In this document: positions 49,664 through 52,223 of the stretch, one piece after another | How the letters are laid out: every line of letters starts with the position of its first letter | Position numbering within the stretch: position 1 is the first letter of the stretch | Origin: Paracoccaceae bacterium | Lineage (GTDB): Bacteria; Pseudomonadota; Alphaproteobacteria; Rhodobacterales; Rhodobacteraceae | Direction of reading: 5' to 3' | NCBI GenBank assembly: GCA_019911965.1 | Contig: JAIOJF010000034.1 | Coordinates: forward strand, 1-64,000 | DNA: 64,000 nucleotides | Made by a program: the position numbers and the translations under genes | Notes under the pieces: generated by a model | The model's input: the letters and a program-made list of their open reading frames with translations, nothing else | Database searches by the model: none | What the model was told of the DNA's origin: nothing

Positions 49664-51217
49664 CTATACAGCTGCCGGCTTGGTCTTTTCGCGCCGCACC
49701 AGCAACTTGTTCAGCGCATTGACATAGGCCTTGGCCGACGCGACCACCGTATCGGTATCGCTGGACTGGCCGGTGACGATCTTGCCGCCTTCTTCCATCC
49801 GCACACTGACCGTTGCTTGCGCGTCGGTGCCCTCGGTCACGGCATGGACCTGATAGAGGACCAGCTTGGTATCATGCGGAAACAATCCCTTGACCGCGTT
49901 GAACGTGGCATCGACCGGTCCGTCGCCCTTGGCGGTGATCTGGTGATCCTTGCCGTCGATGGTCAGCGTCAGGTCGGCCGATTGCGGGGCTTCGGTGCCG
50001 CAGATCACCCGCAGGAATTTCACCTGCAGGCGGTCATTGGCGGCGTTGGTGCTGGTGTCGGTCATCAACGCGATCAGGTCGTCGTCGTAGATTTCCTTCT
50101 TGCGATCCGCCAGTGCCTTGAAGCGCACGAACACGTCCTTCAACTGGTTGTCGCCCAGCTCATAGCCCAGATCGTTCAGCTTGGAGCGCAGCGCCGCGCG
50201 GCCCGAATGCTTGCCCATCACCAGATTGGTTTCGCTGAGGCCGATATCGGTCGGGCGCATGATCTCGAACGTCTCGGCGTTTTTCAGCATGCCGTCCTGA
50301 TGGATGCCGCTTTCATGGGCGAAGGCGTTCTTGCCGACGATGGCCTTGTTGAACTGTACCGGGAAACCCGAAACGGTCGAGACGACGCGGCTGATCTGCA
50401 TGATCTTGGTAGCATCCACGCCGGTGCGATACGGCATGATGTCATTCCTGACCTTCATCGCCATCACCACTTCTTCCAGCGCGGTATTGCCGGCGCGTTC
50501 GCCCAGCCCGTTGATGGTGCATTCGATCTGGCGTGCCCCGGCCTCGACCGCCGCCAGCGCATTCGCCGTCGCCATGCCGAGGTCGTTATGACAATGGGTG
50601 GAGAAAATCACCTTGTCCGCCCCCGGCACGCGGGACAGCAGCATGGATATCAGATCGGCACTTTCACGCGGCGCGGTATAGCCGACGGTATCGGGGATAT
50701 TTATCGTCGTGGCCCCGGCCTTGATCGCAATCTCGACCACCCGGCAGAGATAATCGTGCTCGGTGCGGGTTGCATCCATCGGCGACCATTGCACGTTGTC
50801 GCACAGGTTGCGGGCATGGCTGACGGTTTCATGGATGAGATCGGCCATCTGGTCCATGTCCAGATTCGGGATCGCGCGATGCAGGGGCGAGGTGCCGATG
50901 AAGGTGTGGATACGCGGCTGCGCGGCGTGTTTCACCGCCTCCCAGCAGCGATCAATATCAGGGAACTGCGCCCGCGACAGACCGCAGATCACCGCATCCT
51001 TGGAGCGTTTGGCGATCTCGGCCACCGCCTCGAAATCGCCGTCCGAGGCGATCGGAAACCCGGCTTCGATGATGTCGACGCCCATGTCGTCCAGCAGTTC
51101 GGCGATCTCCAGTTTCTCGTTATGCGACATGGTCGCACCCGGCGATTGCTCGCCGTCGCGCAAGGTGGTGTCGAATATCAATACCCGATCCTGGGCGGAT
51201 TTATCATTGTTTGTCAT
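49664..51217 (-). CDS. leuA: 2-isopropylmalate synthase
   Basis: LeuA condenses acetyl-CoA and 2-oxoisovalerate in the first committed step of leucine synthesis. The 517-residue protein has the DRE-TIM motif FDTTLRDGEQSPGATM (about 15-30), the metal-binding H-x-H in IFSTHCHNDLGMATANAL (about 208-225), GLGERAGNTALEEV, and a C-terminal leucine-binding regulatory domain (about 400-510). It is preceded by a leucine-rich leader peptide and hairpin, suggesting attenuation on top of feedback inhibition. Confidence 0.96.
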   Translation of the reverse strand: MTNNDKSAQDRVLIFDTTLRDGEQSPGATMSHNEKLEIAELLDDMGVDIIEAGFPIASDGDFEAVAEIAKRSKDAVICGLSRAQFPDIDRCWEAVKHAAQPRIHTFIGTSPLHRAIPNLDMDQMADLIHETVSHARNLCDNVQWSPMDATRTEHDYLCRVVEIAIKAGATTINIPDTVGYTAPRESADLISMLLSRVPGADKVIFSTHCHNDLGMATANALAAVEAGARQIECTINGLGERAGNTALEEVVMAMKVRNDIMPYRTGVDATKIMQISRVVSTVSGFPVQFNKAIVGKNAFAHESGIHQDGMLKNAETFEIMRPTDIGLSETNLVMGKHSGRAALRSKLNDLGYELGDNQLKDVFVRFKALADRKKEIYDDDLIALMTDTSTNAANDRLQVKFLRVICGTEAPQSADLTLTIDGKDHQITAKGDGPVDATFNAVKGLFPHDTKLVLYQVHAVTEGTDAQATVSVRMEEGGKIVTGQSSDTDTVVASAKAYVNALNKLLVRREKTKPAAV

Positions 51218-51255
51218 GGTGTTGTCTCGTCTGTTCTTAGCGTTGTGTCTGTCTG

Positions 51256-51297
51256 GTCAGGCGCGTTTGAATACCCTCCGAGCGGACGCGCCCTGAC
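51256..51297 (-). promoter_or_regulatory. Hairpin between leucine leader peptide and leuA
   Basis: On the leftward strand GTCAGGGCGCGT (51297-51286) pairs with ACGCGCCTGAC (51266-51256), an 11-bp stem with one bulged G and a 19-base loop. It lies nine bases after the leader stop and 38 bases before the leuA ATG. No U-run follows, so it may not be a simple intrinsic terminator. Confidence 0.5.
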
Positions 51298-51305
51298 AGG
51301 CACGC

Positions 51306-51392
51306 TCAGAGGCGGCTAAGAAGCAGCAGCGCAGCCAGCGACCGCGGCAAGGGAGCCGGGATCATCGGGGCGATATGTGCGCTTGTCGTCAT
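51306..51392 (-). CDS. leuL: Leucine-rich leader peptide of leuA (putative attenuator)
   Basis: A 28-codon reading frame begins MTTSAHIAPM and ends AALLLLSRL. Codons 22-25 are four consecutive leucines (CTG CTG CTT CTT) and seven of 28 codons are leucine. It stops at TGA nine bases before a stable hairpin, and leuA follows. This is the arrangement of leader peptides that sense charged tRNA-Leu by ribosome stalling. No Shine-Dalgarno is visible, and a TATAGT box ends seven bases before the ATG, so the message may be leaderless. Confidence 0.7.
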   Translation of the reverse strand: MTTSAHIAPMIPAPLPRSLAALLLLSRL

Positions 51393-51399
51393 GGGACGG

Positions 51400-51427
51400 A
51401 CTATAGCCGGATTTCGGGCGATGAAAA
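51400..51427 (-). promoter_or_regulatory. Candidate promoter of the leuA leader
   Basis: On the leftward strand TATAGT (51405-51400) is preceded after 16 bases by TTTTCA (51427-51422), a four-of-six match to TTGACA. The predicted transcript start is at or within a base or two of the leader ATG at 51392. Confidence 0.4.
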
Positions 51428-51446
51428 GGGGGAATTGCAGTACGCC

Positions 51447-52223
51447 CTAACGCAGGCGGGGCGGCTTGGCCGGGTCCATGCCGGGGGCGGTTGCCACCGC
51501 TTCGCGGCTGGCCGGTTCGGGGATGGTGAAGGCGCGGCCAACCGCCAGAATGTCTGCCAGGGCGCGGTCGCCGGGGGCAAAGAAACCGATATCCAGTGTC
51601 GCACCGGAGGCGGTGAAGCCGACCGCCTCGGCAATCGCCTGCCTGAGCGCGGCCGCGACACCCGGCGCGGCCCCGATAATGGCCAGGAGCAGGGTTTGTG
51701 CCCCGTCGTGATGGCGCGCCGTGACCAGCACCGCCTGCTCTGCCAGCCCCGCCGCGCCGTGCAGTTTCGCCGCCAATGCCGCTTCCAGATCGGGATCGAG
51801 CGCATCAGGTGACGCAACCCCCGCCAGTCCGACCATCTGTTCCGCGCCCTGACCGCCCAGCATTTCGCCCAGCCAGACCATCGCTTCGGGCGGCAACAGG
51901 GTTTCGGACGCAGCCACGCCGATATTCAGGCCCAGCGCCAGGTTTGAACCCGCCAGCATCTCGGCCAGCTTGCGGCCCGGCATTTCGGCAAAAGGGGCCG
52001 GTTCGCCGGTGAATTCGGCCAGGCGTTCCTCGTGATCGAAGGCCAGAACGGTTTCGATACCATCGGCGGTCACGGTTTTCGGGCGGATGCGGTCGCCTTC
52101 GGGATCGGTGTCCAGCAGCAGGTAGAGCGTGGTATCGGCCAGGGTTTCAAAATACCTGAGGCGCGCCGCGTCGTCATCGGGGGCCGCGATCATGCGGGCA
52201 TGGGCCTGATCAAGTCTGCTCAT
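51447..52223 (-). CDS. SseB N-terminal domain protein
   Basis: The 258-residue cytosolic protein resembles SseB-type proteins: LYLLLDTDPEGDRIRPKTVTADGIETVLAFDHEERLAEF (outline, about 32-71) matches the SseB N-terminal domain with the x-L-A-F-S/D pattern, followed by ALGLNIGVAASETLLPPEAMVWL. The C-terminal half resembles the SseB C-terminal region. Function in this group is unknown. Its start overlaps the end of the glycosylase gene by 14 bases, so the two are co-transcribed. Confidence 0.75.
   Translation of the reverse strand: MSRLDQAHARMIAAPDDDAARLRYFETLADTTLYLLLDTDPEGDRIRPKTVTADGIETVLAFDHEERLAEFTGEPAPFAEMPGRKLAEMLAGSNLALGLNIGVAASETLLPPEAMVWLGEMLGGQGAEQMVGLAGVASPDALDPDLEAALAAKLHGAAGLAEQAVLVTARHHDGAQTLLLAIIGAAPGVAAALRQAIAEAVGFTASGATLDIGFFAPGDRALADILAVGRAFTIPEPASREAVATAPGMDPAKPPRLR

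Follow-up and report, generated by a model that had tools for sequence, protein, structure and literature searches.

A leucine-codon leader upstream of leuA in Alphaproteobacteria and its likeness to the actinobacterial LEU element

In the leuL leader of E. coli (Leu_leader), Leu codons sense charged tRNA-Leu, and an intrinsic terminator is present. In translational attenuation of the erm-like kind, stalling on a leader exposes a masked ribosome site.

A leader of another description is the LEU element of actinobacterial leuA (Seliverstov et al., 2005; PMC1262725), reported to combine a leader with a Leu run, a pseudoknot, an alternative hairpin, and a base stem formed between the Leu codons and the leuA Shine-Dalgarno sequence. 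In that report the mechanism was left open: attenuation was doubted because of mutational data, and a protein partner was proposed, the candidate being ML1624, reported there as absent outside Actinobacteria. For Streptomyces lividans, the leuA leader LeuL1 (MRFGLLLLSCRGEGL) has been reported as leaderless and as having no typical Rho-independent terminator (PMC8079986). Short frames with four consecutive Leu codons in Corynebacterium glutamicum and three in Mycobacterium tuberculosis have been described ahead of leuA (PMC4046766, PMC3526491), and RNAs of 85, 65 and 45 nt from the M. tuberculosis leader, seen on Northern blots, were taken as the sign of an attenuator (PMC3526491). No later resolution of the LEU mechanism was found in the literature searched; the Alphaproteobacteria, in which we describe a similar layout here, would be a genetically tractable test bed for it.

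Leader frame and putative promoter

The window is the whole stretch of DNA analyzed, 64,000 nucleotides of contig JAIOJF010000034.1 from a Paracoccaceae bacterium (assembly GCA_019911965.1). Its span 51218-51446 reads on the minus strand, with the promoter at the high end and leuA from 51217. The controlled gene, leuA (49664..51217, minus strand, start at 51217), codes for a 2-isopropylmalate synthase of 517 aa, which scores above cut-off against both NF002087 (854.5 bits) and TIGR00973 (668.1 bits). A preliminary description had placed a 28-codon frame ending AALLLLSRL-stop upstream of leuA, and this was found at 51392-51306 (minus strand): the leader peptide frame MTTSAHIAPMIPAPLPRSLAALLLLSRL plus stop, 28 codons at 51306..51392, without Shine-Dalgarno sequence and kept in relatives. 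It ends CTG CTG CTT CTT AGC CGC CTC TGA, followed by the RNA element and then by leuA; the conserved run CTG CTG CTT CTT (51318..51329, minus strand) comprises the putative regulatory Leu codons. The next gene upstream of the leader (window 51447-52223, minus strand) encodes 258 aa with an SseB N-terminal domain (PF07179, above cut-off) and has no NCBIfam family match.

Relatives were gathered by a LeuA query against GTDB genomes, the best 80 loci of a longer list being taken; by title, these are mostly Rhodobacteraceae or their genera, with a few given only as alphaproteobacterium. Loci from 9 of the 10 genomes in the genus of the window, among them the genome that holds it, were added, and L011, whose record starts within leuA, was excluded, giving 88 loci: the window and 87 relatives. 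A leader tail with the RNA element is seen at the window and the 87 related leuA loci, weakly at L076, and a Leu-rich tail was detected by frame in 84 of the 88. Two covariance models were used, R1, built from alignment A2 alone (65 loci), and R2, on the same basis with seven distant loci and L012 added. R2, itself partly built from such loci, was run over 81 of them (the 80 and L010) and matches 80 at E up to 2.1e-5 and the last, L076, at 0.054.

For the Leu run, three near copies and four cupin loci (see below) were removed from the 88, leaving 81. At least four Leu among the last eight codons are present in 78/81 loci versus 21/1000 Markov-shuffled 200-nt upstream regions from 40 loci, in which any frame was permitted; conservation of the run in relatives, suggested earlier as a check, is thus borne out. 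In 80 of the 81 the run closes with CTT or CTA, although these two make up 9% of the Leu codons in the same leuA genes, a bias for which pairing in helix C (see below) may account. In L010, L014, L048 and L077, 139-229 nt separate the leader stop from leuA, whereas nearly all other loci have 69-123 nt there.

Elsewhere the leader is variable: its length ranges from 13 to 33 residues across relatives and its middle is not conserved, both of which argue against a peptide that works in trans after its synthesis, as reported for Sinorhizobium peTrpL. A role of this kind, which we consider very improbable, would gain from a His that is conserved near the N terminus, at codon 6, and is mostly encoded by CAT. 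This His (window 51375-51377) is found in 44 leaders, often with Ile after it, and early His codons are CAT in 49/59 cases, versus 547/1231 in leuA. It is perhaps a start-proximal signal of a leaderless mRNA.

The -10-like TATAGT lies at 51400..51405 (minus strand) and ends, as had been noted, seven bases before the leader ATG; the -35-like element CTTTTCAT is at 51421..51428 (minus strand), its TTTTCA 16 nt from the -10 box. A box of the form TAT[AC]NN stands 6-8 nt before an in-frame ATG in 60/81 loci, compared with 117/7025 control ATGs in the same loci, and within these 60 clear-box loci the distance is 7 nt in 43, 8 in 13 and 6 in 4. The remaining 21 have no box under this pattern, several having TATGAT, GCATAGT or similar and some no clear promoter, while in L064 the contig starts within the leader; this group was not counted as support. 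Where frame was not required beforehand, 66 of the 67 ATGs sitting 4-9 nt behind a TAT-like box, counted upstream of the leader stop only, begin an uninterrupted frame that contains the Leu run. In a positional profile the strongest upstream signal is T at -35 and -34 from the ATG (56/60 and 54/60). In these leaders the -35 region resembles CTTTTCAT rather than TTGACA, and its distance to the ATG is fixed.

The lack of a visible Shine-Dalgarno sequence at the leader ATG, also pointed out in the preliminary description, extends from the window to the other clear-box leaders: AGGA, GGAG or GAGG occurs between -16 and -5 in 0/60 of them, window included. At the leuA starts of the same 60 loci one of these motifs is present in 18, and a looser purine test is positive in 50. 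The constant distance from -10 box to ATG fits a transcription start at the AUG, suggesting that the RNA starts at or near the leader AUG and that the leader is leaderless.

Three helices and a putative translational switch

Three pairings can be drawn between the leader and leuA (all on the minus strand). Helix A joins CCTCTGAGCG (51303..51312), which includes the leader stop TGA, to CGCTCGGAGG (51275..51284); this is the hairpin previously claimed between leader and leuA, present as 10 bp around the leader stop codon. Helix B has its 5' strand, GGGCGCGT (51286..51293), within the loop of A and its 3' strand, ACGCGCCT, at 51259..51266, so that A and B would either combine in an H-type pseudoknot or be alternatives to each other. 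Helix C joins TTCTTAGC (51315..51322), at the end of the Leu run, to GCTAAGAA (51234..51241), which is 16 nt from the leuA ATG. Helices B and C, like the spread over Alphaproteobacteria and the resemblance to the LEU element, go beyond the preliminary description.

Because a thermodynamic fold of the leader alone is weak evidence (z -1.54, with 15/200 shuffles equally good), covariation was relied on. When each 5' strand in the window's group (n=75) was paired with its own or with swapped partners, z was 9.2 for A, 7.5 for B and 11.5 for C, and 0/2000 permutations scored as high; the stems that had been singled out for comparison in relatives do covary. With one locus per distinct 5' strand, by which relatedness is lessened and not removed, z was 4.3 for A (n=11), 5.9 for B (n=32) and 8.2 for C (n=34), with 0/5000 permutations as high in each. 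Compensating variants of helix C include CTTAGC/GCTAAG, CTAAGC/GCTTAG, CTTACG/CGTAAG and CCTAA/TTAGG. In A2, 97.1% of the cells of A and four pairs of B are standard pairs, and 20 cells are changed on both sides versus 2.9 in shuffles. Helix A taken singly is paired in 97.7% of cells in A2, with two-sided changes in 3 of its 10 pairs; in alignment A3 (29 loci) these are seen in 6 of 10. Between A and B, 72/75 loci have a linker of 5-11 nt (the exceptions are L005, L075 and L076), lengths at which an H-type pseudoknot or mutual exclusion of A and B is possible.

The sequence of helix A is nearly fixed, as might be expected if a regulatory protein or other trans factor bound the fold and the leader frame were secondary, as Seliverstov et al. 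proposed for the LEU element (PMC1262725), where Streptomyces leader mutations are reported not to fit classical attenuation. This seems to us improbable: helix A is partly fixed by the coding of R-L-stop, all but one of the 67 box-spaced ATGs share the reading frame of the Leu run, and ML1624 is reported only in Actinobacteria (PMC1262725), while the element is also in Alphaproteobacteria.

The preliminary description had noted that no U-run follows the hairpin, and none does in the window; TTTT occurs between element and leuA in 7/81 loci. An intrinsic terminator was rejected on these grounds. A classical attenuator with an intrinsic terminator, as in E. coli leuL, would be suited by a Leu-rich leader ahead of a leucine gene and by interlocking helices. 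It is nonetheless a very poor candidate here: there is no U-run behind the hairpins, and no Rfam match, Leu_leader included.

The reading we favor, which we think probable by a modest measure, is a leucine-sensing translational attenuator of the LEU-element kind that controls the downstream gene. Transcription would start at or beside the leader AUG, and ribosomes would load there without a Shine-Dalgarno sequence. The C/U-rich Leu codons would serve at the same time as a strand able to mask a ribosome site: when free of ribosomes they would pair, as helix C, just upstream of leuA (the pairing itself being shown by covariation), closing a compact fold on helix A and, in the window's group, helix B. 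With leucine plentiful, the leader would be read through, the ribosome would depart, the fold would close and leuA translation would fall. With charged tRNA-Leu scarce, a ribosome would stall on CTG CTG CTT CTT, helix C would not form and leuA would be translated. No intrinsic terminator would be involved; Rho polarity on the untranslated leuA might conceivably add to the effect. In such an amino-acid sensing mode, the sensing codons and the masking strand would be the same bases.

These states were modeled by folding with the leader ribosome as a mask, a model in which the pseudoknot cannot be included. With the Leu codons masked, the mean unpaired probability of the 3' strand of C rises from 0.16 to 0.56-0.59 (75 loci), a gain that is in part built in because the strand was chosen as the best complement. 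In the leuA start region the rise is small, from a mean of 0.54 to 0.60-0.61, and is seen in 52 to 57 of the 75 loci; in the window itself it is from 0.60 to 0.74-0.81. In this model helix C opens also when the ribosome is at the stop codon, so that the off state requires the ribosome to depart. In the window's group, 14-26 nt separate helix C from the leuA ATG in 55/75 loci, and with the window's gap of 16 nt the 3' strand of C does not cover a standard Shine-Dalgarno position.

Another possibility is transcriptional attenuation without a U-run, in which the leader ribosome selects A or B and, with leucine plentiful, Rho or some other route ends transcription before leuA. The geometry would permit it: with A and B interlocked, a ribosome positioned at the leader stop would keep A from forming while both strands of B stayed free. 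The scarcity of TTTT (lacking in all but 7 of 81 loci) agrees with an attenuator of this form, the sequence just ahead of leuA in the window is rich in A and C, and the short leuA-leader RNAs on M. tuberculosis Northern blots (PMC3526491) speak for an effect on transcription there, by which the odds are shifted slightly. We nevertheless regard it as unlikely, although it ranks second among the readings, in view of how helices B and C behave in more distant loci and ahead of other genes.

Distant families and cupin-first loci

Within the class, R1 matches 12/385 genomes (the window's own included), and all 12 loci have LeuA. R2 matches 74/385 alphaproteobacterial genomes at E up to 0.01, of which about 4 would be expected by chance, taking the rough E-values at face value. 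In the phylum-wide search it matches 39/299, all in the same class or nearer, the non-class share of the 299 being uncounted. The window's own genome has a single element match even at E 5. In Rfam (15), nothing reaches the gathering score in the window or six relatives, and three matches lie far below it (E 3-9). The element would be an RNA family without an Rfam 15 match, and one whose presence points to leuA across many families of a single class.

The class and phylum searches gave 88 R2 matches outside the window's family; 85 were retrieved, including seven that had gone into R2. Each of the 85 has a same-strand LeuA match, which in 84 cases lies downstream of the element; the match at L191 is only 27% identical, and the geometry of L124 is unreadable. 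Leader tails are like LLLxxP-stop (44) or LRLxxP-stop (36) in 80 of the 85. The Leu run is broken by Arg (L-R-L, often CTTCGACTT) in 37/85, for example in L121, L125, L150 and L164, and in L-R-L leaders the resulting CCTTCG pairs with a CGAAGG that lies at the ribosome site of leuA.

Pooled over 80 of these other-family loci, helix A has z 10.2, and helix C, scored against positions -30..-1 of leuA, has z 7.3; the partner of C ends 5-12 nt before the leuA ATG in 38 of the 80. Helix B gives z 0.4 in the same pooled alphaproteobacterial loci, with 658/2000 permutations as high. The lack of support for B in these other families, where C is kept, weighs against transcriptional attenuation by a choice between A and B; it is also a point against the favored reading.

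A second line of evidence comes from six loci (L023, L045, L071, L089, L096 and L099) in which a cupin-like gene, not leuA, is first after the element. In L023, L045, L071 and L089 the frame reading missed the leader, and R2 located the element farther upstream, ahead of the cupin gene. The gene of L023, L045 and L089 codes for 118 aa with Pfam Cupin_2 above cut-off; the assignment in L071 (where the gene was read by eye), L096 and L099 is by likeness. In 6/6 loci the Leu run is a better match to the sequence preceding the cupin start than to that preceding leuA. Four of the six have a compensating partner of their own that ends 6-8 nt ahead of the cupin ATG (GGCTAAGGA, GCTTAGGA, GCTAAGGA, GATTAGGA), and in L045 the partner of C ends 14 nt ahead of that ATG. 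In L071 the comparison is less clean, the automatic start being too far downstream; read by eye, a GTG lies a few bases behind GCTAAGGAG. Helix C thus falls on the cupin ribosome site in four or five of the six, and it appears to track the start of the first gene; in these operons control may begin with the cupin gene.

This tracking of the cupin start in 6/6 loci also weighs against transcriptional attenuation. The preliminary description had left Rho and leuA translation side by side as alternatives to an intrinsic terminator; of these, translation is the better supported, through helix C, because the Leu codons pair upstream of whichever gene comes first.

Relation to the LEU element and other leaders

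A literature search gave no account of this element in Alphaproteobacteria within its scope, outside which lay supplements and subscription papers, so that an earlier mention is possible; leuA is absent from the main texts of PMC8632094, PMC1273637, PMC13236596, PMC2965389 and PMC3766115, and Vitreschak et al. (2004, FEMS) is cited for an alphaproteobacterial ilvB leader. Direct comparison with actinobacterial and Sinorhizobium leuA loci was made on records from a plasmid collection. Loci of Nonomuraea, Nocardia, Microbacterium and Tsukamurella have a Leu-run leader, a long helix A, a B pairing and a candidate C; the leuA of Sinorhizobium meliloti pSymB (L212) has a leader, A, a B-like pairing and a candidate C. 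Helix C is clear in Microbacterium (GCTTCTTCTT with GAGAAGAAGC). The pairing at the ribosome site is 6 bp in Nonomuraea and Sinorhizobium, where it is not top-scoring, 5-6 bp in Nocardia and weak in Tsukamurella. The Sinorhizobium leader reads MTQADAH...ASLLLLGLIRGCRVR, with TATAGG six nt ahead of its ATG and LEU-like helices, and its LeuA matches the TIGR00970-like query. Three LeuA-like genes of Streptomyces plasmids (L205, L206 and L211) have no such element near their starts.

When R2, which holds Alphaproteobacteria only, was run over eight loci, ranks 1-4 were taken by L209 (E 0.0015), L207 (0.0036), L212 (Sinorhizobium, 0.032) and L208 (0.076), with L210 fifth at 0.41; the similarity to the actinobacterial loci is weak and comes partly from the Leu run, that of Nonomuraea mainly so. 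The likeness may reflect common descent or convergence, since CU-rich Leu codons resemble an anti-Shine-Dalgarno sequence by nature. A broader proposal, which we put forward tentatively and would rate at somewhat under even chances, is that of a switch class, common to Actinobacteria and Alphaproteobacteria and to two LeuA subfamilies, in which Leu codons mask a ribosome site. It would be either ancient or moved between phyla, its target would be the first gene, and the sensor of the LEU element would be the leader ribosome, not an actinobacterial protein; the presence of the same architecture in Alphaproteobacteria argues against a partner protein confined to Actinobacteria.

Other leaders share single features with this one. 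Leu-codon sensing would be as in E. coli leuL, although the Leu_leader model of Rfam finds no match here. The uORFC-8-2 motif of cysS (PMC8632094) is likewise found in Rhodobacterales, with an upstream frame of cognate codons and a proposal of ribosome-mediated attenuation, but it concerns cysteine and cysS and is described as permitting transcriptional read-through. The trpL of S. meliloti (PMC10117765) is also described as an alphaproteobacterial leaderless leader frame before a biosynthetic gene, but as a tryptophan attenuator that yields an sRNA. The leaders of C. glutamicum and M. tuberculosis (PMC4046766, PMC3526491) were read as transcription attenuators, unlike the reading favored here. 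The leader LeuL1 of S. lividans, MRFGLLLLSCRGEGL (PMC8079986), resembles the ...GLLLLSCL of L043 and L059; the phyla differ, and the start site was reported as measured in S. lividans, whereas here it is inferred.

The closest likeness is to the LEU element as described (PMC1262725). Common to both are the position upstream of leuA and a Leu-run leader, with no terminator named in that description. Its base stem formed by Leu codons may correspond to helix C, and its pseudoknot may have a counterpart in A and B, which covary in the window's group with linkers that would permit one. There are also differences. The leader stop of the alphaproteobacterial form lies within the 5' arm of helix A, whereas in the four actinobacterial loci it is behind that arm. 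The LEU base stem is reported to cover the leuA ribosome site, whereas in most of the window's group (55/75) C is 14-26 nt upstream of the ATG. The window's LeuA is of TIGR00973 type; the four actinobacterial LeuA were found via a TIGR00970-like query. Judged from sequence, the architecture is best read as a variant of the LEU element, for which an earlier description was found only for Actinobacteria and which would now extend to many Alphaproteobacteria.
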